Of a DNA stretch of 64,000 bases, positions 2,201 to 16,925 are shown piece by piece. The number at the start of each line of letters is the position of its first letter. Positions within the stretch are counted from its first letter, which is position 1. Source of the DNA: Mycoplasmatota bacterium (GTDB taxonomy: Bacteria; Bacillota_I; Bacilli_A; Haloplasmatales; Haloplasmataceae); the NCBI GenBank assembly GCA_018394295.1, contig CP074573.1, forward strand, positions 1,240,001 to 1,304,000, read 5' to 3'. Below the pieces are notes generated by a model that made no database searches, was not told the DNA's origin, and worked only from the letters and a program-made list of their open reading frames with translations. A program made the position numbers and the translations under genes.

Positions 2201-2783
2201 GAAATTTATATATAGAGTTCTTACTTGGACGGTATTAGTGGTAGTATTAACATTTGTGACAATTTATAATTATCGAATTTTTGTTACTAACTCAGTTAAA
2301 AAAGATATTGAAAAACAAGAAGCTATCAATAAAGAATATGAAGGTAAATATGGTCATATACAATCAGTTATTAATAAAATAGATCAGTACAATGATAAAG
2401 TTTATGATGATAATAAATATGCTGATCTTATTCCTGATTATTATGACAGCAAAGAAATACTTTCTAAATATGTGAATAGACCTATTTTATTATCAAATGC
2501 TGAATTGTTAAGTGTATCGTTATCTGAAGCGATGCCTGCTAATATCAAATGGTCTAATAATTCTAATACAAAAGATATAAAAGGAATTAAAGTTTCAGTT
2601 ACATTTGATATTGAAATAAATAATTTAGATGTTTTTATTAATGAATTACAAACCAGTTTACGTTGTATTTACTTTGGAGATATAAAATACACATTATCAG
2701 GTGAAAATGCACCTGATAATGAAAAAATTAAAGTTAATATGATCTATTTTCTATTCTATCGAGATGTTGAAAAAACCACCTAG
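2193..2783 (+). CDS. pilO: PilO-like type IV pilus assembly protein
   Basis: Protein of 196 residues with one N-terminal membrane helix (about residues 10-30), a coiled-coil-like stretch (NSVKKDIEKQEAINKEYEGKY) and a C-terminal ferredoxin-like-sized domain, the architecture of PilO, the partner of PilN. It starts with TTG inside the end of pilN, with GGTGG at 2184-2188 as ribosome site. The stop codon lies inside the bidirectional hairpin at 2772-2805, so this is the last gene of the pilus operon. Sequence similarity is weak; the call depends on topology and gene order. Confidence 0.65.
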   Translation: MNKKFIYRVLTWTVLVVVLTFVTIYNYRIFVTNSVKKDIEKQEAINKEYEGKYGHIQSVINKIDQYNDKVYDDNKYADLIPDYYDSKEILSKYVNRPILLSNAELLSVSLSEAMPANIKWSNNSNTKDIKGIKVSVTFDIEINNLDVFINELQTSLRCIYFGDIKYTLSGENAPDNEKIKVNMIYFLFYRDVEKTT

Positions 2784-2805
2784 AAATGAAATTCTAGGTG
2801 GTTTT
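2772..2805. terminator. Bidirectional terminator between pilO-like gene and ispG
   Basis: A perfect 14-bp stem (2772-2785 with 2792-2805) with a 6-base loop and A/T runs on both sides. Both converging genes place their stop codons inside the stem, an unusually compact arrangement. Confidence 0.9.
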
Positions 2806-3885
2806 ATTTTTATCATTCAAGGATTTTAGCTCTGTCATTTTAAGGATTTCTTCTTTCAAGACATTCACCATATCTTCTTGGTTTACACGTTTAATGATTT
2901 CTCCCTTTTTAATTAACAATCCCATATTTTTACCACCAGCTATCGCAAGATCAGCTTCTTTAGCTTCTCCTGGGCCATTAACAGCACATCCCATAACAGC
3001 TACTTTGATATCTGAATGAATATTTTGTAGAAATTCTTCGATTTCCCTAGCAATAGGGATTAAATCAAATTGGATACGTCCACAAGTAGGGCAAGAAATA
3101 AGAGTAGGGACATTTTTAATTAAATTAAAGTTTTTTAAAATCTCTTTACAGACTTTGATTTCTTCAACTGGGTCAGCTGACAATGATACTCTAATTGTAT
3201 CTCCGATTCCTTCATTTAATAGGATACCTAATCCTATTGCGCTTTTAATAGTACCTGTAAATGTTGTTCCTGCTTCAGTAATTCCTAAATGAAGGGGGTA
3301 GGGAAATTTTTTCGCTGCTAGTTGATAAGCTTTTATTGCCATTTGTGTATTAGAAGACTTTAAGGATATTATGATATCATGAAAATTAAATTTTTCTAAT
3401 AATTCTACATGATATTGTGCACTGGCTACCATTGCTTCAGGTGTTGGATGTCCATAGGTCTCTAATATATGTTTTTCGATTGAGCCACTGTTTACACCGA
3501 TTCTTATCGGTATTTTTGCTAATTTACAAGCATTAACAACTTCTTTTATTCTTTCTTCATTTCCAATGTTTCCAGGATTAATTCTCACTTTATCAATCCC
3601 ATTTTGTATGGCAATTAGCGCATATTTATAATTAAAGTGAATATCAGCAACTAGTGGTACTTTAATTTTTTCTTTAATTGATTTAATTGCATGAGCATCT
3701 TCTTCGTCAAATACGGCGACTCTGACAATTTCACAACCTGCTTCTTCTAATGCATTAATTTGCTTAACTGTATTTTCTATATCTTTTGTCTTGGTATTTG
3801 TCATACTTTGTATGACAACACTATTCTGTCCACCAATTATAATATTTCCTACTTTTACTGGTCTTGTTTCAGTACGTGTATACAT
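2794..3885 (-). CDS. ispG: 4-hydroxy-3-methylbut-2-en-1-yl diphosphate synthase (flavodoxin type)
   Basis: GcpE/IspG, a [4Fe-4S] enzyme of the MEP isoprenoid pathway converting methylerythritol cyclodiphosphate to HMBPP. 363 residues, the normal bacterial length. The TIM-barrel N-terminal half begins [16 protein letters not shown], and the cluster ligands appear in the C-terminal third as [11 protein letters not shown] and GCAVNGPGE. Transcribed alone, divergent from sodA. ispA and dxs at 18-21 kb belong to the same pathway. In B. subtilis ispG (yqfY) is also close to sodA. Confidence 0.97.
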
Positions 3886-4022
3886 GAAATTAGCACTCCT
3901 TTCTTATTATTTAATTATTATGTGCATATAATAAGTTATGTAGGTATTAAATAAGCATACAAAATTATTATAGCAATAATTAAAATTGTAAGCAAATAAA
4001 ATCTTAATTTAGGAGGAATTTT

Positions 4023-4649
4023 ATGGCTATTTATGAATTACCTAAATTACCTTACGCTTATGATGCATTAGAGCCTTATATCGATAAAGAGACGGTAGAA
4101 ATTCATTATTCTAAGCATCATCAAGCCTATTTAAACAAATTACTAGAGACCCTAGAAGGACATGAGAATCTAGCACAAGGAAAGTCTATTGAAATGGTAT
4201 TATCTGATTTAAGTCAAATACCAGAAGAGATTAGACAAAAGATTATTAATTTTGGTGGAGGTTACGCAAATCATAATATGTATTGGTTTATTCTATCACC
4301 TAATGGTGGAGGAGAGCCAGGTGGTAAATTATTACAAGCCATTAACGATCAATATGGCAATTATGATAATTTTAAAAATGAACTAGGAAAAGCTGCCAAA
4401 GGTGTTTTTGGATCAGGTTGGGCTTGGTTAGTTGTTTGTAATGATAGTAAAAATTTAGAAATCATGACAACACAAAATCAAGATTCTCCATACAGTTTCA
4501 ATAAAACACCATTAATCATAATTGATGTTTGGGAACATGCTTATTATCTTGGTTATCAAAATAGAAGAGCTGATTATGTAGATCGTTTTTTTAATCTATT
4601 GAATTGGGATGAAATTGAACATCGTTATGAGGAAGCAATGAATAAATAA
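4023..4649 (+). CDS. sodA: Superoxide dismutase, Mn/Fe family
   Basis: Cytoplasmic dismutase, 208 residues. Metal ligands are visible at His28, His84, Asp168 and His172 (in DVWEHAYY). The segment NQDSP near residue 152 is the form usual in Mn enzymes, so manganese is more likely than iron. A strong AGGAGG-type site lies 9 bases before the ATG. It is followed by rpmG after 150 bases with its own promoter. Confidence 0.97.
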   Translation: MAIYELPKLPYAYDALEPYIDKETVEIHYSKHHQAYLNKLLETLEGHENLAQGKSIEMVLSDLSQIPEEIRQKIINFGGGYANHNMYWFILSPNGGGEPGGKLLQAINDQYGNYDNFKNELGKAAKGVFGSGWAWLVVCNDSKNLEIMTTQNQDSPYSFNKTPLIIIDVWEHAYYLGYQNRRADYVDRFFNLLNWDEIEHRYEEAMNK

Positions 4650-4715
4650 ACAATTTTATAGAAAATCTTTTACCGTTTATTTATTATTAATCAAGTTTGT
4701 ATACTTAAAAAAGTC

Positions 4716-4743
4716 TTGAAAATTATACAAAAAATGTTATAAT
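4716..4743 (+). promoter_or_regulatory. Sigma-A type promoter for rpmG
   Basis: TTGAAA at 4716-4721, 16-base spacer, TATAAT at 4738-4743; about 56 bases before the rpmG start. Confidence 0.7.
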
Positions 4744-4799
4744 AAAGTAGTTGCAACACAATATATATATTATTCGTATACGAACGGAGGTTAGTCTAA

Positions 4800-4949
4800 A
4801 TGCGTGTAAATTTAACATTAGTATGTACTGAATGTAAGGAACATAACTATATTACAAAAAAAAATAAACGTAATAATTCAGAACGTATAGAATTAAAAAA
4901 ATATTGCTCTAGATGTAATAAACAAACGTTACACAGAGAGAAGAAATAA
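4800..4949 (+). CDS. rpmG: 50S ribosomal protein L33
   Basis: A 49-residue zinc-ribbon type L33: [17 protein letters not shown] at the N-terminus and [16 protein letters not shown] at the end, giving two CxxC pairs. CGGAGG at 4785-4790 precedes the ATG. It is too short for most ORF callers but the family pattern is unmistakable. It has its own promoter and terminator. In B. subtilis rpmGA also lies between sodA and glcK, supporting the synteny. Confidence 0.95.
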
Positions 4950-4952
4950 TAA

Positions 4953-4980
4953 AAACTGACATCGGTCAGTTTTTTTTATA
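4953..4980 (+). terminator. Rho-independent terminator after rpmG
   Basis: Stem AAACTGAC/GTCAGTTT (4953-4960 with 4965-4972), four-base loop, then a T run. Confidence 0.9.
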
Positions 4981-5225
4981 TAAACAAGACTAAAATTATC
5001 AGAAATTTAATGATATTGAAGACGTTTCATCATGGAAATCAATAATTATTCCAAGAGATTATATCCAAATTGAAAATGAGACTAATTGCTTATAAGAATC
5101 TCGTATTATATGAAATAACAAATATACAATACTACAAAATTATTATTTTTTATCTGATTATAAAATGGTTTGTATTTAATAAGATACTAAAAAACTGATA
5201 TTTGTTGAAGTTTAATAAATGATTA
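4981..5225. other. Intergenic stretch without a supported gene
   Basis: Between the rpmG terminator and the glcK promoter. A startless open frame at 4994-5095 reads SSWKSIIIPRDYIQIENE and looks protein-like, but it has no start and no family I recognise; it could be a remnant of a gene lost from this conserved region. Confidence 0.4.
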
Positions 5226-5254
5226 TTAACATAAAATAAAACATATGTTATAAT
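5226..5254 (+). promoter_or_regulatory. Sigma-A type promoter for glcK
   Basis: TTAACA at 5226-5231, 17-base spacer, TATAAT at 5249-5254, 36 bases before the glcK start codon. Confidence 0.7.
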
Positions 5255-5289
5255 ATTAATGGATTTTTAGGTAACAATAGGAGGATAAT

Positions 5290-6228
5290 ATGAAGAAATA
5301 TTTGTACGGTGTTGACTTAGGAGGTACTACAGTTAAAATCGGTTTCTTTTCTATTGAAGGTGATTTAATAGAAAAATTTGAAATAAGAACTAATACTGAA
5401 AACAGTGGTCAAATGATTTTAAGTGATATCGCTAAAGCTATAGAAACACATTTGGAAAAAAATAATATTGATAAATCATTAGTAAATGGTGTAGGAATTG
5501 GCGTTCCTGGTCCTGTTTCTAATGGAGTTGTAAATCGTTGTGTAAACTTAGGTTGGGATGTTGTTAATGTAAAAGCTGACCTAGAGGCACTTACCAATAT
5601 AAAAGTAGGCGTTAGTAATGATGCTAATGTTGCCGGATTAGGTGAATTATGGCAAGGTGGAGGAAGTGGATATTCTAATTTAATCTTTCTCACATTAGGT
5701 ACTGGTGTTGGTGGTGCTGTTGTTTATGACAATCAAGTGATTGATGGTCATATAGGAGCAGGTGGTGAAATCGGTCATGCCCCAACCATTGATAGTCCTT
5801 TTTTATGTAATTGTGGTAAAGTTGGATGTTTAGAAACTGTCGTATCAGCTACTGGTGTAGTAAGAGTTGCCAATAAGTTATTGAGTGAGAAATCGATAGA
5901 TTCAATGTTAAGAAATAATAAATCTTTAAGTGCGAAAATGGTTTTCGATGCTGCTAAGAAAAATGATCAACTTGCTATTGAAACACTAGAAATATTTGGT
6001 AGAAACTTAGGATTTGTATGCGCAGTACTTGCAGTTACAACGAATCCTCAAGCTTTTGTTTTTGGTGGTGGGGTGTCAAATGCTGGACAAATAATTATTG
6101 ATTATGTAAAAAAATATTTTGACCAATATGCATTTTATGGTGTTAAAGATCACACAGAATTTAAATTAGCTAAATTGGGTAATAAAGCTGGGATTTATGG
6201 AGCTGCCTTTTTAGCGAAACAATTATAG
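5290..6228 (+). CDS. glcK: Glucokinase, ROK family
   Basis: ATP-dependent glucose kinase of the ROK family, 312 residues. The phosphate-binding loop is GVDLGGTTVKIGFF (residues 7-20), the sugar/zinc region is HIGAGGEIGH followed by CNCGKVGCLE with cysteines at 173, 175 and 180. The C-terminal GGGVSNAG matches the adenosine motif. AGGAGG-like site directly upstream. The metallo-hydrolase gene starts 7 bases after its stop, so the two are co-transcribed. B. subtilis has glcK at the same relative position. Confidence 0.93.
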   Translation: MKKYLYGVDLGGTTVKIGFFSIEGDLIEKFEIRTNTENSGQMILSDIAKAIETHLEKNNIDKSLVNGVGIGVPGPVSNGVVNRCVNLGWDVVNVKADLEALTNIKVGVSNDANVAGLGELWQGGGSGYSNLIFLTLGTGVGGAVVYDNQVIDGHIGAGGEIGHAPTIDSPFLCNCGKVGCLETVVSATGVVRVANKLLSEKSIDSMLRNNKSLSAKMVFDAAKKNDQLAIETLEIFGRNLGFVCAVLAVTTNPQAFVFGGGVSNAGQIIIDYVKKYFDQYAFYGVKDHTEFKLAKLGNKAGIYGAAFLAKQL

Positions 6229-8491: not shown

Positions 8492-9460
8492 ATTGATTTT
8501 GACCATTTTCTTAAAGAAATAATTCATTATGCTTTAAAAAGAAAAGCAAGTGATATTCATTTTTTAAGTGATAATGAAAAATGTTTAGTAAAATTACGAG
8601 TTGATGATCGTTTAAAATTGTTTAAAGAAATTAAACAAGAATATTATAAAAGACTGATTACTTATATAAAGTATAAAAGTCACATGAATTTAAATGTATC
8701 GAGAAGTCCTCAATCAAGTGCTTTAAATCTATCAATACATGATGAACTGATGCGCATTCGGGTATCCACGTTACCATCATATAATAGTGAAAGTGTCGTA
8801 TTAAGAATCAATCATCACTTTGAAGATAGTGTAGACAAATTACTATTGTTTAGTGAGAAAGCAAGTATTTTCACTAATTGTTTTAAACAATCTAATGGGT
8901 TAATTTTAATTACAGGTCCTACATGCTCTGGAAAAACAACTTTAACCTATAGTTTATTAAATTACTTAAAAAAACAAGGTTTATCAATTGTCACGATAGA
9001 AGACCCAGTAGAACAATACAAACAAGGTTTTGTTCAACTTCAAGTTAATGAAAGTGCTGGTGTTAACTATGATAGTGGAGTAAAAGAAATATTACGTCAT
9101 GATCCTGATGTTATATTAATTGGTGAAATCAGGGACCATCACACAGCAAAAAGCGCAATTAGAGCCAGCTTAACAGGGCATCTAGTAATTAGTACGATGC
9201 ATGCAACGAATGCACTAAAGGCTTTATATCGTCTCTTAGAGCTTGGTTTATCAAGACTTGATCTTGAACAAAGCTTATTATTAGTCTCGAATCAACGATT
9301 AACTGTCTATAAAAATAGTAAGAAGATTATCTTCGAATATTTAACTCAAGATAAAATGGTTGAAGCACTTAATCATATTAAAAATGGTAATAACTTTTCC
9401 TATCAAAAAATCGATGATTATTTAGTAAAGTTAGATGATTATAAGGTGATTAAAAAATGA
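8492..9460 (+). CDS. comGA: Competence pseudopilus ATPase ComGA
   Basis: Secretion-type traffic ATPase powering the DNA-uptake pseudopilus. The conserved frame extends upstream of ATG 8618: IDFDHFLKEIIHYALKRKAS followed by DIHFL is typical ComGA N-terminus. No ATG, GTG or TTG exists in frame after the TAA at 8486-8488; the only sensible start is ATT at 8492, seven bases after GGGAGGGGG. Length would be 322 residues, near the usual 350. Walker A GPTCSGKTTL, Walker B DPDVILIGEIRD, and the His box STMHATNALKALYRL are present. Overlaps comGB by 4 bases. A sequencing or mutational change of an original ATG is the alternative explanation. Confidence 0.92.
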   Translation: MDFDHFLKEIIHYALKRKASDIHFLSDNEKCLVKLRVDDRLKLFKEIKQEYYKRLITYIKYKSHMNLNVSRSPQSSALNLSIHDELMRIRVSTLPSYNSESVVLRINHHFEDSVDKLLLFSEKASIFTNCFKQSNGLILITGPTCSGKTTLTYSLLNYLKKQGLSIVTIEDPVEQYKQGFVQLQVNESAGVNYDSGVKEILRHDPDVILIGEIRDHHTAKSAIRASLTGHLVISTMHATNALKALYRLLELGLSRLDLEQSLLLVSNQRLTVYKNSKKIIFEYLTQDKMVEALNHIKNGNNFSYQKIDDYLVKLDDYKVIKK

Positions 9461-10386
9461 ATTGTGAGAAGCAATATTTGCTAATTAGAATATTAAATCG
9501 TTTACTAACTAAAGGATATTCTTTATTAGAGGCAATCGAAATGATGAAAAATATTGATACAAAAATAACTAGACAAATGAAAGAAATGTTAGAAACAGGG
9601 AATTTATTGTCCACTGTTTTTAAAAGATTAAAGTTTAAACGATTTGTGTATGAAACCATTCAAGTAGGTGAAAGAAGTAACAAGTTGAATGAAGTTATAA
9701 CTTTAATAGAAGGACACTTTGATTTTTATTTGAAGTTTAAAAAACAAATTAATAAGGTTTTATTATATCCATTGATATTATTTATCTTTGCCCTTATTTG
9801 TTTTGAAATGATTAGAATTAATTTATATCCTGTCATTAAAACCTTACTTGGTGATTATGCAATTGGACAAAATGATTTATTAATTTTTCTTTCTTTCAAT
9901 CTATTAAAGTGTATCGCTTTATTTTTATTTGTTATATCATTAATTTGTAAATTTTATAACAGTCTATCTAATCTATTGCCATTAATGAAAATCTATCGAT
10001 CGTTAACCTTATCAAAACATTTAGAAGTATTATTAATGTGTGGTAATAGTTTAGAAGAGGCTTTAATTATTCTTAAAAATAGTTTTAATCCTATAACCTA
10101 TCGTCTTGATACATTTGAATTATCCTTATTAGATGATAAAAAAGTTGGTAGTTTTTGTCCTTATCCCTTAGCTTTTATACAGTATTTTAAATTAGGGATG
10201 AAGAGTAATGATATAATTGGTGCTTTACAAGATTATGTATATATCTATGATGAAATTCTATTTGACAAGTTAACTAAAATAACTTACTATGTTCAATTTA
10301 GTTTATTCTCACTATTATCTATTAATATCTTTTTAATCTATTATATTGTGATGATTCCCATGCTTCAAATCTCAAATAAAATATAA
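9457..10386 (+). CDS. comGB: Competence pseudopilus membrane platform protein ComGB
   Basis: GspF/PilC-type polytopic platform protein, 309 residues, slightly shorter than B. subtilis ComGB. Two copies of the cytoplasmic helical domain are visible, the first ending before the hydrophobic segment VLLYPLILFIFALICFEMI (about residues 103-123), with another membrane segment near residue 145 and one at the C-terminus (SLFSLLSINIFLIYYIVMIP). Starts within the last codons of comGA (ATGA overlap) with AAGGTGAT upstream. Confidence 0.92.
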   Translation: MNCEKQYLLIRILNRLLTKGYSLLEAIEMMKNIDTKITRQMKEMLETGNLLSTVFKRLKFKRFVYETIQVGERSNKLNEVITLIEGHFDFYLKFKKQINKVLLYPLILFIFALICFEMIRINLYPVIKTLLGDYAIGQNDLLIFLSFNLLKCIALFLFVISLICKFYNSLSNLLPLMKIYRSLTLSKHLEVLLMCGNSLEEALIILKNSFNPITYRLDTFELSLLDDKKVGSFCPYPLAFIQYFKLGMKSNDIIGALQDYVYIYDEILFDKLTKITYYVQFSLFSLLSINIFLIYYIVMIPMLQISNKI

Positions 10387-10397
10387 AGGGGAGTAGG

Positions 10398-10706
10398 ATG
10401 AATAAAAGAGGATTTACCTTAACAGAATTAATGATTGTTTTGATTATCATTTCAGGGTTGATGTATTTAGTGATACCTAATATCACATCAACAAAGAGTA
10501 GTTTAGATAATAAAACCTGTAAGGCATATATTGAATTAGTAAATACACAAATTCAAGCCTATAGAATTGATAATGATGAACTACCAATTGGTTTACAAAC
10601 ATTAGTGGATGAGAAATACATTAAAAGTGATACGTGTCCTGATGGGTCGATCATTAAATATGAAAATGGTGTTGCTTCAATTCAAGAAACGGAAACGACT
10701 CCATGA
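10398..10706 (+). CDS. comGC: Major competence pseudopilin ComGC
   Basis: Prepilin of 102 residues. Class III leader MNKRG is cleaved before FTLTELMIVLIIISGLMYLV, with the glutamate at +5 of the mature protein as usual. Two cysteines (KTCKAY and SDTCPDG) could form the intramolecular disulfide known in ComGC. Strong GGGGAG site upstream. Overlaps comGD by 4 bases. Confidence 0.95.
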   Translation: MNKRGFTLTELMIVLIIISGLMYLVIPNITSTKSSLDNKTCKAYIELVNTQIQAYRIDNDELPIGLQTLVDEKYIKSDTCPDGSIIKYENGVASIQETETTP

Positions 10707-11113
10707 ATCGTAAAGGAAGTTATTTATTAGAAGTGGTGGTATCAATCACAATCATCACTTCCTTTTTATTATTTATTCCTATGGTAAATAAGAGTAGTTG
10801 TGAGGTAAAAAAGGATTATTTTATAGAAACATTAAGAAGTGATATTCAGTATGGATTGAGTTATACGATGACACATTGTACTTTAATTAATGTTTATTTT
10901 ATATCAGATCAAAATTATTATGTGATGGTTGATGGAAATTTAGATCGAGTTCTTAAACGTAATTATGATAATACATTCAGTTTATATGCCAGTAGAATTC
11001 AAATTACACATGGATATGTGCTTAAAACAGTGATTCTATCGATAAGTTGTGAAAATACCTCTTATCAAATAATAATAAATGAAAAGAGTGGAATGATTGA
11101 TGAATCGTCGTAA
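10703..11113 (+). CDS. comGD: Minor competence pseudopilin ComGD
   Basis: 136 residues with prepilin leader MNRKG followed by SYLLEVVVSITIITSFLLFI, retaining Glu+5. The remainder is poorly conserved beta-rich sequence as in ComGD. Start overlaps the comGC stop. Position third in the comG operon gives the assignment. Confidence 0.85.
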   Translation: MNRKGSYLLEVVVSITIITSFLLFIPMVNKSSCEVKKDYFIETLRSDIQYGLSYTMTHCTLINVYFISDQNYYVMVDGNLDRVLKRNYDNTFSLYASRIQITHGYVLKTVILSISCENTSYQIIINEKSGMIDESS

Positions 11114-11399
11114 AAATGCCTATATTTTTTATGAGCTTTTGATATGTTTTATCCTCTTTACAACTTTAATCTATTTCATAATAGTTCCAGTTAGTCGATT
11201 GAATATAAATTATGAAAATCAAAAATTAACCTATCGTATGAAACAAACATTATATTTAAATGTTGTGTTACTTGAAGATGGTGAAACATTAACTTGTAGT
11301 GATACTTATGATTTAAAAAAAGAAGATGAATTTTTATGTATTGAGTGGTGGGACTTTAATAATGAAAAAAGATGTTATTGTGAAAAAGTCTGGCTTTAG
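11100..11399 (+). CDS. comGE: Minor competence pseudopilin ComGE
   Basis: About 100 residues, MNRRKNAYIFYELLICFILFTTLIYFI: a prepilin-like N-terminus with Glu at the expected place, though Asn precedes the likely cleavage site instead of Gly. Start could be TTG 11097 or ATG 11100; ATG preferred. Overlaps comGD by 14 bases and comGF by 38. Assigned mainly by order. Confidence 0.75.
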   Translation: MNRRKNAYIFYELLICFILFTTLIYFIIVPVSRLNINYENQKLTYRMKQTLYLNVVLLEDGETLTCSDTYDLKKEDEFLCIEWWDFNNEKRCYCEKVWL

Positions 11400-11793
11400 C
11401 TGTCTTGAAATGATTTATTGTTTATTTATATTTATTAATTTATTTGTTTTATGTTGTCAAATAATTTATAATATAAATACTAATCTTAAAGTAGAAGAAA
11501 AAAAAAGAGTTTTAACTTATGAAACAGTTGCCTTAAGAATAGAAAATCATCTAAAAGAAGTAAGTGATTATGAAATAGGAGAAGATTATTTTTATTATTA
11601 TTATCGAAACCATTTATATTATTACGCTGTAATTAACAATTACTTAATCTTAAAAATTGACTCTGTTAGATATAATATTATCGAGCATGTAATGAAAATT
11701 TCTTTCCATTATAATCAGTATTTTCTTAAAATAACTATTACAGATATTTATCATAATACCTATTATATTGAGGTGATTTTATATGATAAATAA
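11362..11793 (+). CDS. comGF: Minor competence pseudopilin ComGF
   Basis: About 143 residues from ATG 11362, chosen because GGTGGGA at 11346-11352 precedes it and the resulting leader MKKDVIVKKSG directly precedes the pilin motif FSCLEMIYCLFIFINLFVL. A longer frame reaches back to 11326. The gene starts inside comGE in another frame, dense packing typical of comG operons. Confidence 0.8.
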   Translation: MKKDVIVKKSGFSCLEMIYCLFIFINLFVLCCQIIYNINTNLKVEEKKRVLTYETVALRIENHLKEVSDYEIGEDYFYYYYRNHLYYYAVINNYLILKIDSVRYNIIEHVMKISFHYNQYFLKITITDIYHNTYYIEVILYDK

Positions 11794-12160
11794 GAGAGGT
11801 TTTTTCTTACCTTATACCTTTTTCCTATTAATAACTGTGTTAAATATGGTCATATTTGTCGTATTATGTAATTTAAATACGAATAATTACTATAATGAGA
11901 AAAATAATTATTATCACACTTTTATTTTAGAAGAACGTGCGAAAAGACATATTGAAGAGAAAATCACTTTAAATCAAGTGAATCATAATGAATCTGAGTT
12001 ACTTTATTATGATGAAGATTTTATTTATTTAACCTATCAATATGATTCTACCTATCAATTATGGAAGATTAGCATGCGAATCAAATATAAGAATATCGAT
12101 GAATACGGGACGATTTATTATTATTTAGAAACAAAAAAAATAATTTTAGAAATTCGTTAA
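11783..12160 (+). CDS. comGG: Minor pseudopilin-like ComGG
   Basis: 125 residues, MINKRGFFLPYTFFLLITVLNMVIFVV: KRG before a hydrophobic segment, but without Glu at +5, as is common in ComGG. Overlaps comGF by 11 bases and ends 11 bases before aroK. Last of the seven com genes. Confidence 0.8.
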   Translation: MINKRGFFLPYTFFLLITVLNMVIFVVLCNLNTNNYYNEKNNYYHTFILEERAKRHIEEKITLNQVNHNESELLYYDEDFIYLTYQYDSTYQLWKISMRIKYKNIDEYGTIYYYLETKKIILEIR

Positions 12161-13583: not shown

Positions 13584-13961
13584 TTATTTTAAAGGACCAT
13601 TCCAATTTTTTAATCCGTTTTTCAGTTGATACACTTCAACATAACCTTTTGATCGTAAATAAACGGCAGCACGATTACTACGACTACCACTTGCACAGTA
13701 TAAATAAATAGGAAGATCTTTTCTTAATTTTTGATATTCACGGGCAATCATCTGAATACTAATATTTCTTGCACCGTTAATATGACCAGATTTAAACTCT
13801 TGTTTCGAGCGTACATCCACTAATTGTCCTTTACGCATATTTTTCTTAAATTCTTCTGTTTCTAATTTAATACTCGCTTTTTTTGCTTGAAAGAAGGAAA
13901 AAATAAATATACCAAAAATAAAAGCGGCTAATCCAACTAAAGTATATGTCAACCAATTCAT
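13584..13961 (-). CDS. Membrane-anchored rhodanese-domain protein, YqhL-like
   Basis: 125 residues: one N-terminal membrane helix (LVGLAAFIFGIFIFSFF), then a single rhodanese domain with active-site loop CASGSRS near the C-terminus and the conserved LVDVRSKQEFKSGHINGA. It may carry sulfane sulfur at the membrane. ATG 13961 is chosen over 13967 because GGAGGC at 13969-13974 is well spaced only from the former. B. subtilis yqhL occupies the matching place between comG and aroQ. Confidence 0.9.
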   Translation of the reverse strand: MNWLTYTLVGLAAFIFGIFIFSFFQAKKASIKLETEEFKKNMRKGQLVDVRSKQEFKSGHINGARNISIQMIAREYQKLRKDLPIYLYCASGSRSNRAAVYLRSKGYVEVYQLKNGLKNWNGPLK

Positions 13962-14115
13962 TAACATCGCCTCCAGATAAAATTATATCATAAAATTTAA
14001 ATAAAATCACAATTAATTTTCTTTATTAACTGATATTATATATGTAAAGGGAAAAATGCTTTTATTTAACATTAATTTATTGTAAAATTGAAATAAGCAA
14101 AATACGGAGGATTAT

Positions 14116-14547
14116 ATGAAAATCAAAATAATAAATGGCGTTAATTTAAATATGTTAGGAATACGCGATGTAGATATTTATGGAAAAAGAACTTATAAAG
14201 ACTTAGCGAAAATGATTTTTGATTTTAGTTTAGAAAATCAACTTGAATGTGATTGTTTTGTCAGTAATTTTGAAGGTGAAATAGTTGAAGCAATACATGA
14301 TACGTATTTAAATAAATATGATGCTTTAATTATTAATCCTGGGGCTTTTACGCATTATTCTTATGCGATAAGAGATGCATTACAAATATTAACATGCTTA
14401 AAAATAGAGGTCCATATTTCTGATATTAACCATCGTGAAGCATTTCGTAAAAACAATGTGATAAAAGATGTATGTGATAGTTCAATTATAGGAAAAGGGC
14501 TAGATGGATATATTGAAGCGATAAAATATATTTTGAAAAATAGATAA
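14116..14547 (+). CDS. aroQ: 3-dehydroquinate dehydratase, type II
   Basis: 143 residues, type II dehydroquinase of the shikimate pathway. Motifs: NGVNLNMLGIRDVDIYG (lid loop with catalytic Arg and Tyr), SNFEGEIVEAIHD, INPGAFTHYSYAIRDAL, EVHISDINHREAFR with the catalytic His. Two departures from the usual consensus, NGPN to NGVN and HLSN to HISD, are mild. CGGAGG site upstream. Followed by efp with its own promoter. Confidence 0.94.
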   Translation: MKIKIINGVNLNMLGIRDVDIYGKRTYKDLAKMIFDFSLENQLECDCFVSNFEGEIVEAIHDTYLNKYDALIINPGAFTHYSYAIRDALQILTCLKIEVHISDINHREAFRKNNVIKDVCDSSIIGKGLDGYIEAIKYILKNR

Positions 14548-14551
14548 AAGA

Positions 14552-14580
14552 TAGACAAATAATGAAATTTTTTATATAAT
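14552..14580 (+). promoter_or_regulatory. Sigma-A type promoter for efp
   Basis: TAGACA at 14552-14557, 17-base spacer, TATAAT at 14575-14580, 36 bases before the efp ATG. Confidence 0.75.
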
Positions 14581-14615: not shown

Positions 14616-15176
14616 ATGATATCATGTAGTGATTTAAGAACAGGCATGACAATTGAGCATGAGAAAAATATTTTTTCTGTTTTAGAATATCAACATGTTA
14701 AATCAGCTCGTAGTGCTGCTTTTGTTCGATTAAAATTAAGAAATTTACGTTCAGGAAGTGTTGTTGACTTAACTGTTAACTCTTCAGAAAAATTTAAACC
14801 CGCTCATATAGAAAAACATTCAATGCAGTATTTATACAACAGTGGTGATTTCTATATTTTTATGAATAATGAGACGTATGATCAAATAGAAATTCCAGCA
14901 AGCAACTTAAAAAACGAAACTAAATTTTTATATGAAGGTCTTGAAGTTAAAGTCATCATGTTTGATGTTGAAGTAATCGGGATTGAATTACCTGATAAAG
15001 TCGTTTTAGAAATAGTTGAGTGTGAACCAGCTATCAAAGGCGATACAGCTCAAAATGCGACTAAAAATGCAGTTGTTCAAACTGGTTTAGCCATTCAAGT
15101 ACCATTATTTATTGAAAATGGAGAACGTGTTATCATCTCAACAGCTGATGGTAAATATGTTTCTCGTGCAAAATAA
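14616..15176 (+). CDS. efp: Elongation factor P
   Basis: Translation factor that rescues ribosomes stalled at polyproline, 186 residues with KOW-like domain I and two OB domains (C-terminus GDTAQNATKNAVVQTG and GKYVSRAK). The tip loop that reaches the peptidyl-transferase centre reads VKSARSAAFVR instead of the VKPGKGAAFVR usual in Bacillota, putting arginine (residue 32, codon 14709-14711) where a modified lysine is expected. Strong GGAGG site. Monocistronic with promoter and terminator. Confidence 0.96.
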   Translation: MISCSDLRTGMTIEHEKNIFSVLEYQHVKSARSAAFVRLKLRNLRSGSVVDLTVNSSEKFKPAHIEKHSMQYLYNSGDFYIFMNNETYDQIEIPASNLKNETKFLYEGLEVKVIMFDVEVIGIELPDKVVLEIVECEPAIKGDTAQNATKNAVVQTGLAIQVPLFIENGERVIISTADGKYVSRAK

Positions 15177-15180
15177 CATA

Positions 15181-15209
15181 AAAAACCTATTTTTTAATAG
15201 GTTTTTTTA
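15181..15209 (+). terminator. Terminator after efp
   Basis: Stem AAAAACCTATT / AATAGGTTTTT with four-base loop and T run. Confidence 0.9.
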
Positions 15210-15497
15210 AATGATTCTTTGATTGTTAATTTTTTTACTAAATCTATCTATTTTTAAAAAAAATTATCAATTTTAGTTATTTTTTTACTTTTTGTTTCAT
15301 TATATTAGTAATAGCCTATGTAATAAATAGTACTAGTGTAAAATAATTTGTTTAAAGTTATTTTCATTTCTAATGAAAAAAAGAATTTTTCATAGCGAGA
15401 ATTCAAATTTTTTTGAAGAAAGTGTAAATATTAGTATTATTTTCAACTTAAAAATCATATTTTTTAATAAAGATAATTTGAGGAGGTTATTATTTTT
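15210..15497. other. Intergenic region where spoIIIAA-AG would be expected
   Basis: AT-rich, no open frame of note; contains the spoIIIAH leader and a GAGGAGG ribosome site at its right end. No recognisable remnant of spoIIIAA-AG. Confidence 0.6.
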
Positions 15498-15995
15498 ATG
15501 AAACCACAAGGTAAAGTTACTATTTTTATGGTAGTGATGATAGTGATGCTATCAATATACTACTTTATGCTTCCTGATAACAAAAACGTTGATGTAGGAA
15601 CAACTACTACAGATCAAACTGATGTAACAATAAATAAATCTGCAGAGTATGAACAATTACGTGCAGAATTAAATGAAAGTCGACAAACAATGATTACAAC
15701 CCTACAAGGTGTTTTAGCATCAACAAATGTTACAGTAGAAGACAAGAATGTTGCAATTGAAAGCATTCAAAGGATTCAAACGCTTGTTCAAAACGAAGGT
15801 ATCTTAGAAACACAAATTGCTAATCTTGGATACGATGATGTATTTGTTCTAGCGAATGATACAGAAGTAAAAGTATCAGTGTATGTCGATAATTTAACGA
15901 TTGAAGAAGTGAATCAGATCATATTAATGTCTAAAAGCCAATTTGGTCCAACCGCTGATGTCATCGTACAATACACAATAATTGATGTAAATTAA
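15498..15995 (+). CDS. spoIIIAH: SpoIIIAH-like stage III sporulation protein
   Basis: 165 residues: short N-terminus, one membrane helix (VTIFMVVMIVMLSIYYFML, about residues 7-25), then an acidic/threonine linker, a helical segment (YEQLRAELNESRQTMITTLQ) and a ring-building-motif-like C-terminus ending SQFGPTADVIVQYTIID. This is the architecture of SpoIIIAH, the mother-cell half of the channel bound by forespore SpoIIQ. It lies between efp and asp23, as in Bacillus, but the other seven spoIIIA genes are absent here. Somewhat shorter than the B. subtilis protein (about 218). Confidence 0.82.
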   Translation: MKPQGKVTIFMVVMIVMLSIYYFMLPDNKNVDVGTTTTDQTDVTINKSAEYEQLRAELNESRQTMITTLQGVLASTNVTVEDKNVAIESIQRIQTLVQNEGILETQIANLGYDDVFVLANDTEVKVSVYVDNLTIEEVNQIILMSKSQFGPTADVIVQYTIIDVN

Positions 15996-16044: not shown

Positions 16045-16069
16045 AATATTGAAAGCAGGAGGGATACTA

Positions 16070-16435
16070 ATGGAAGTAAAGTATATTCAATTAGATATAA
16101 ATAACCAACCCAAATACGGTGATATAAATGTAAATCTTCAAGTATTAGAAGTCATATCATCAAATTCAGCCTTAGAAGTAGAAGGCGTAGCATCTATGCA
16201 TGACAAGATAACTAAAGTTGTCACAGATGCTTTTAACCGAAACCATCGTAGTGGAGTTAATGCAGAAATTATTAAAAATGGCATCGTGATTGATCTTTAT
16301 ATTGATGTTAAATATGGAGAATCAATCCATAAAGTTGGGAAAAAAGTTCAAGAAAATGTTAAACAATCAATTTATAATATGACATTGCTTGAAGTATCCC
16401 GAATTTATGTTCATGTAGTAAATATTAATTTTTAA
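16070..16435 (+). CDS. Asp23/Gls24 family protein, YqhY-like
   Basis: 121 residues of the Asp23/DUF322 family: GDINVNLQVLEVISSNSALEVEGVASM at the start and the repeating IDLYIDVKYGESIHKVGKKVQENVKQ core. Members are abundant envelope-associated or fatty-acid-metabolism related proteins; YqhY of B. subtilis lies at the same place beside nusB. ATG 16070 chosen because AGGAGGG at 16055-16061 is well spaced; the TTG at 16049 overlaps that site. Confidence 0.9.
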   Translation: MEVKYIQLDINNQPKYGDINVNLQVLEVISSNSALEVEGVASMHDKITKVVTDAFNRNHRSGVNAEIIKNGIVIDLYIDVKYGESIHKVGKKVQENVKQSIYNMTLLEVSRIYVHVVNINF

Positions 16436-16514: not shown

Positions 16515-16925
16515 ATGAATCGTAAAAAAGAACGTGAAATTATCGTTTTATCTTTATATAGTATGGAACTATCAGATAACGATATAAATGAAACAGTCCA
16601 TTACATTTTAGAACAAAATAAAATCAAACAAGAAGCAACTGATTATATTTATGATAGTATTAATGGGGTATTAGAAAACAAAGAGAAAATTGATGAGATT
16701 ATCGCAAATAACTTAGAAAACTATAAAATAGAACGTTTATCGTATATTGATTTATCAATCATTCGCTTTGCAACTTATGAGTTATTATACATTGAGGATA
16801 TTCATCATGCAGTCATCATCAATGAAGCGGTAGAAATAACAAAAAAATACAGTGATTTAGGGGATCATAAAGCCTCTGCGTTTAACAATCGAGTGATGGA
16901 TAATATTAGGTTAAGTATTAAATAA
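16515..16925 (+). CDS. nusB: Transcription antitermination factor NusB
   Basis: All-helical RNA-binding factor for rRNA antitermination, 136 residues. Starts RKKEREIIVLSLYSMEL and has the conserved YKIERLSYIDLSIIRFATYELLY and VIINEAVEITKKYSDLGDHKASAFNNRVMD segments of the family. First gene of the nusB-xseA-xseB-ispA-dxs-tlyA-recN run. In Bacillus folD sits between nusB and xseA; it is missing here. Confidence 0.95.
   Translation: MNRKKEREIIVLSLYSMELSDNDINETVHYILEQNKIKQEATDYIYDSINGVLENKEKIDEIIANNLENYKIERLSYIDLSIIRFATYELLYIEDIHHAVIINEAVEITKKYSDLGDHKASAFNNRVMDNIRLSIK

Follow-up and report, generated by a model that had tools for sequence, protein, structure and literature searches.

The elongation factor P (EF-P) encoded in the window, the 64,000-nucleotide stretch of DNA analysed here, carries the residues K-S-A-R-S at positions 29-33, and Arg32 takes the tip position of the loop. 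Comparison among relatives shows that one clade of Haloplasmataceae has the arginine tip throughout, derived from K-P-G-K-G, so that it is not the oddity of a single genome. By analogy with other arginine-tipped EF-Ps, we think it fairly likely that this protein, functional, vertically inherited and the only EF-P of the cell, works with Arg32 unmodified. A modified tip is commonly regarded as necessary for EF-P to be active. With K-P-G-K-G and K-S-A-R-S at the same syntenic gene in one family, Haloplasmataceae provide a natural experiment, and the pair of loops offers a means to tell if a loop with bare arginine is enough or another modification exists.

The efp Gene and Its Surroundings

The gene and its neighbours are placed in the window as follows.

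13584..13967, minus strand: rhodanese-domain protein, a conserved neighbour
14116..14547, plus strand: aroQ, type II 3-dehydroquinate dehydratase, the upstream neighbour, with synteny also in the K-P-G-K-G genome G002
14552..14580, plus strand: promoter-like TAGACA-17-TATAAT just upstream of efp, a consensus match only (11/12)
14616..15176, plus strand: efp, encoding an elongation factor P of 186 aa and present in a single copy, assigned from the ORF translation and family models
15498..15995, plus strand: SpoIIIAH-like protein, downstream neighbour
16049..16435, plus strand: Asp23-family protein, downstream neighbour
16515..16925, plus strand: nusB, downstream neighbour

The product of 14616-15176 is a complete canonical EF-P. 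It scores 240.4 bits against the NCBIfam profile TIGR00038, for which the cut-off is 185.8. The three domains that make up EF-P in Pfam, the KOW-like PF08207, the OB domain PF01132 and the C-terminal PF09285, are each over their cut-offs. The two models for EfpL, in contrast, stay far under their cut-offs on the window EF-P (NF003392, 144.3 versus 216; TIGR02178, 122.3 versus 264.05). A profile search of the whole source genome gives a single EF-P match. Indeed, each of the eight genomes sampled from the order has exactly one match, so there is no lysine-type backup.

Between efp and spoIIIAH (15177-15497), the window contains no ORF of at least 80 aa. In B. subtilis this interval is occupied by spoIIIAA to AG, and in the source genome the spoIIIA operon may have been split or may have kept only spoIIIAH. 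Elsewhere in the window (9457-12160), a run of ORFs, judged by eye, resembles a competence or type II secretion pilus, with a membrane protein and short proteins whose N-termini are prepilin-like.

Alignment and Predicted Structure of the Tip Loop

Two features define the loop.

14694..14726, plus strand: beta3-omega-beta4 loop and flanks, H27-V-K-S-A-R-S-A-A-F-V37; the canonical form is HVKPGKGxAFV
14709..14711, plus strand: Arg32 codon CGT, the tip residue, equivalent to Lys32 in B. subtilis EF-P

The first-pass annotation had described a K-S-A-R-S tip with Arg32 in an otherwise Bacillota-like EF-P, and the description is borne out by gap-free alignments, the family models and an AlphaFold2 model. 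HVKSARS lies over HVKPGKG with no gap in the alignment to the closest solved EF-P, from Bacillota (6rji/6rk3), and the loop alignment to 21 relatives is likewise gap-free, with the remaining conserved EF-P residues kept. In the AlphaFold2 model (mean pLDDT 89.4), the strands 18-28 and 36-43 enclose a seven-residue loop (29-35) with Arg32 in the middle. Alignment and model alike thus put Arg32, and no lysine, at the tip position. The concern that the loop might be misaligned, voiced together with the original observation, is removed by these alignments, with which the model agrees.

The K-S-A-R-S Loop within Haloplasmataceae

The order sample comprises eight genomes from six genera, all of one family, Haloplasmataceae; the loci L002, L003 and L004 are judged to belong to the genomes G005, G007 and G006, respectively, and are counted once each. 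The named relatives of the locus are Inordinaticella fortuita (85% identity), Haloplasma contractile B5_bin.1 (83%) and a Haloplasmataceae MAG (76%). The alignment across neighbouring lineages that had been proposed as a check reveals K-S-A-R-S in seven of the eight genomes, which represent five of the six genera, and K-P-G-K-G in the eighth. The codons of the loop vary silently, with CGT, CGA or AGA for Arg32 and TCA, TCT or AGT for Ser30. A loop that is shared by seven of eight genomes through differing synonymous codons excludes an assembly error, the other fault that had been considered for the arginine. The independent genomes concur with the ungapped alignments and with the structure model; nothing was found in favour of a misaligned loop or an assembly error, and either is next to impossible.

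The eighth genome, G002, has K-P-G-K-G at the same syntenic efp, with rhodanese, aroQ, spoIIIAH and asp23 as neighbours. In a quick tree calculated with the loop removed, G002 falls outside the K-S-A-R-S clade. When the eight genomes were constrained to one clade, the log-likelihood was 9.44 higher (p-AU 0.686), and a one-clade history for the eight genomes is no worse a fit to the EF-P data than the free tree. The simplest history is a single rewrite from K-P-G-K-G to K-S-A-R-S inside Haloplasmataceae.

A gene for a modifying enzyme beside efp was considered and rejected: of rhodanese, aroQ, spoIIIAH, asp23, nusB and xseA, whichever could be reached at a given locus recur both in the K-S-A-R-S genomes and in the K-P-G-K-G relative, with nothing new among them. 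In L004, from a Haloplasmataceae MAG, efp and spoIIIAH are separated by about 3 kb of additional sequence (2588-5636); on the plus frames, this interval has no ORF of at least 90 aa before spoIIIAH.

Known Modification Enzymes and EF-P Types

The window EF-P is the same protein as the lysine-type EF-P of Bacillota, represented by B. subtilis with 5-aminopentanol on Lys32, having the same length and family models and aligning gap-free to 6rji; it differs in having S30, A31, R32 and S33 where the lysine type has P30, G31, K32 and G33. The Lys32 of the P-G-K-G loop, to which 5-aminopentanol is attached, is therefore missing here, and YmfI is not found over its cut-off. Similarly, the tip lysine of the beta-lysylated EpmA type is replaced by arginine, and EpmA is not found over its cut-off.

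The first-pass annotation had suggested a genome search for earP, ymfI and epmA. YmfI (NF047420, cut-off 238) and EpmA (TIGR00462) are absent over their cut-offs in all eight genomes of the order, with one and two of the 14 control genomes, respectively, over them. EarP (PF10093) is unmatched in the eight order genomes and in the 395 Bacilli genomes; none of the 14 controls matched either, so this search has no positive control, and EarP is likely to be absent. Matches to the YmfI model that came near the cut-off, at 215 to 230 bits in seven of the eight genomes, were discarded as FabG, located within fabD-fabG-fabF, and the best score in the eighth genome, G006, is 168.7. The best matches to the EpmA model are frames of 503-520 aa and are probably LysS. 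G002, which has K32, is likewise without YmfI or EpmA over the cut-offs and without an EarP match, so the absence of the known enzymes does not by itself explain the switch of the loop.

The tip arginine and the lack of proline at position 30 are shared with the EarP-type EF-Ps of Pseudomonas, Neisseria and others, which carry rhamnosyl-Arg32, and this likeness (PMC6544042) would favour rhamnosylation of Arg32, whether the enzyme is a diverged EarP or a different glycosyltransferase. However, all seven K-S-A-R-S genomes have Ala31 and not the Gly31 of the P. putida substrate, and Ser33 stands where P. putida has Asn33. In P. putida EF-P, G31 is described as crucial for function, and G31A and S30P reduced in vitro rhamnosylation to <1% of the wild-type rate, although EarP overproduction in vivo still modified such variants (PMC6544042). 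A loop with Ser30 and Ala31 is therefore not an EarP-type loop. EarP itself is reported from about 10% of bacteria, namely Beta- and some Gammaproteobacteria, certain Fusobacteria, Planctomycetes and Spirochetes (PMC5615199). Given these residues, and the lack of an EarP match in any order or Bacilli genome, albeit with unmatched controls, we regard rhamnosylation as very unlikely.

EfpL (YeiP) also has an arginine at the tip, and that arginine is shown to be unmodified in PMC11611912. The EfpL loop is longer, however, and EfpL occurs as a paralog alongside a normal EF-P, whereas here there is a single copy that scores under the EfpL cut-offs. The arginine-type EF-P of Mollicutes, as in Mycoplasma Syn3.0 (MMSYN1_0391), shares the tip arginine in a cell recorded as having no EarP-like enzyme, and a glycosyltransferase is assumed for it in that report (PMC4993169). 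An arginine-type EF-P in the absence of EarP is thus already known from that source, and K-S-A-R-S is not unique. The Mollicutes loops differ from K-S-A-R-S, with TGR, QGR and TAM among them, and fall elsewhere in the EF-P tree; in small-genome Bacilli, too, we read Arg and Met loops of this kind. By title and abstract, none of the open-licence papers retrieved concerns Haloplasma EF-P.

Continued Need for EF-P

If the gene were decaying, or the role of EF-P lost, the loop could drift without function, and the loss of EF-P in B. subtilis is indeed reported to cause no severe growth defect (PMC5885033). Against decay, residues 29-33 are identical in seven genomes despite synonymous codon change, and the other conserved EF-P residues are kept, as is the PPP motif of valine-tRNA ligase. 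The motif, PPPNVTG, is encoded in seven of the eight genomes (six of the seven with K-S-A-R-S), the miss being G006, which is 85% complete. It was read in translation in five genomes, and in the source genome the model score (897.3 bits) identifies the PPPNVTG protein as valine-tRNA ligase.

We also counted PP pairs against within-protein shuffling, using sampled stretches and simple ORF calling in three K-S-A-R-S and three P-G-K-G genomes. There were 62 pairs seen and 91 expected in the former and 88 seen and 130 expected in the latter, an equal depletion (p = 1.0). For strong-stall motifs, which we took to be PP with P, D, G, W, E or N after it, or with D or A before it, the counts were 13 seen and 34.9 expected versus 30 seen and 53.5 expected (p = 0.27). 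A lower number of PP pairs in the source genome, which would have hinted at a weak EF-P, was apparent at first look only and vanished after composition correction. With the PPP motif of valine-tRNA ligase kept, and PP content unchanged for composition, work remains for EF-P. There is no sign that the lineage escapes the need for EF-P, and decay of the gene or loss of its role is extremely unlikely.

Possible Action of an Unmodified Arg32

An EF-P with a bare arginine tip would enter the E site beside a proline-stalled P-site tRNA, as usual. The guanidinium of Arg32, presented on a proline-free loop, would then reach the CCA end and stabilise it directly, as proposed for Arg33 of EfpL, and no lysylation, aminopentanolylation or rhamnosylation would be needed. 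EfpL Arg33 was found unmodified by mass spectrometry and has a modelled contact with the CCA end (PMC11611912). In B. subtilis EF-P, K32R is reported to abolish modification and to suppress the swarming defect of ymfI (PMC5885033). Furthermore, of the 1166 EF-Ps surveyed in PMC6544042, 81.11% have Lys at the tip and 14.75% have Arg, with proline at position 30 nearly absent in the arginine types. Since arginine-type EF-Ps (14.75%) are commoner than EarP (about 10%), Arg33 of EfpL is unmodified and K32R is functional, the unmodified reading is better supported than a new kind of modification.

There are also observations that weigh against a bare arginine. E. coli EF-P with K34R has only about 20% of wild-type activity, G33A or P32S abolish activity, and the P. 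putida protein is inhibitory when unmodified, as given in PMC6544042. With K34R weak and the unmodified P. putida protein inhibitory, there are loops in which a bare arginine does not work. In addition, an enzyme of a new family would escape profile searches.

Such an undiscovered enzyme, unrelated to EarP and recognising a K-[ST]-A-R loop, may modify Arg32; this is the main rival to the unmodified reading, although we think it the less likely of the two. EpmA- and EarP-type EF-Ps need their modifications, and more than 50% of bacteria are stated to encode no known EF-P-modifying enzyme (PMC6544042); the rewritten positions are, moreover, fixed across five genera. On the other side, the efp neighbours tested in K-S-A-R-S genomes are those of the K-P-G-K-G relative, with no new gene, and both the unmodified arginine of EfpL (PMC11611912) and the function of K32R in B. 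subtilis swarming (PMC5885033) argue that an arginine tip can do without a modification.

Loop Variation across Bacilli

An EF-P match is present in 383 of 395 genomes of the class Bacilli. We read the loops of 122 EF-Ps, a set that is not random: the window, two named loci and 119 loci from the Bacilli survey, the last consisting of 29 of the 30 best (the window being counted apart), 30 of the 37 matches that came from 35 genomes with weak scores, and 60 hand-chosen, mostly one per genus. Residues 30-32 are PGK in 74, TAM in 15, SAR in 8, TAR in 7, TGR in 5, QGR in 5, SAN in 3, TAK in 2, SGR in 2 and TKR in 1, this single row having a gap in its alignment. Residue 32 of the 48 non-PGK loops is Arg in 28, Met in 15, Asn in 3 and Lys in 2. 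All 74 loops with Pro30 have Lys32, and 46 of the 48 without Pro30 are also without Lys32. Pro30 and Lys32 are thereby shown to be tied, the loss of one going with the loss of the other, in agreement with the near absence of that proline from arginine types described in PMC6544042. Their joint loss shows which loop positions must change together.

In a quick tree of 92 rows, calculated with the loop removed and with a maximum of four PGK rows per family, changes between PGK and other loops take seven steps, at least three of which are forced by starred branches. On this quick tree, a single origin of all non-PGK loops was rejected. The K-S-A-R-S Haloplasmataceae form one clade (99) within the PGK part of this tree, apart from the large TAM/TAR/TGR/QGR set, and Bacilli have departed from PGK in several ways, of which K-S-A-R-S is one. 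The first-pass annotation had proposed that the protein either works unmodified or has an unrecognised arginine modification. This was the right pair of options, with no EarP match (nor one in the controls) and no YmfI or EpmA over the cut-offs; what changes is the frame, as the loop is clade-wide and one departure among several, and the unmodified option is favoured.

The pattern V-K-x-x-R-x-x-x-F-V-R occurs in 45 of the 395 Bacilli genomes. Among the efp places listed, it lies at efp only in the seven K-S-A-R-S Haloplasmataceae, and the other matches look like chance.

L208, from genome G072 of another Bacilli family (f9), also carries a K-S-A-R-S loop, but with other residues around it (LHSKSARSAAVIN). 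One clade for the eight SAR rows is not rejected (p 0.333), and convergence between the K-S-A-R-S loops of f1 and L208 is possible. The recurrence of the loop would speak for modification of Arg32 by a new enzyme, though with the single SAR clade not rejected. More broadly, Bacilli may have repeatedly swapped the P-G-K tip for K-[ST]-A-x, where x is Arg, Asn, Met or Lys, together with an undiscovered EF-P activation. The Arg and Asn forms would then have a new side-chain modification made by a new enzyme, and Haloplasma K-S-A-R-S would be the cleanest recent case; this proposal is speculative, and we doubt that it holds.

Several further loops were seen in the survey. L106 and L110 (f16) and L221 (f14) have KSANS, with an Asn tip in an otherwise canonical HV...FVR, and there are PGKG relatives in the same families. 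L204 and L223 (f22) have KTAKS, in which Lys32 is kept and Pro30 and Gly31 are lost, and such loops are possible intermediates. Finally, some genomes of the class have two EF-P matches, namely G105 and G318 (f13) and other genomes of f13, f19 and f21, and the EF-P copies read in G105 and G318 have KQGRL loops.
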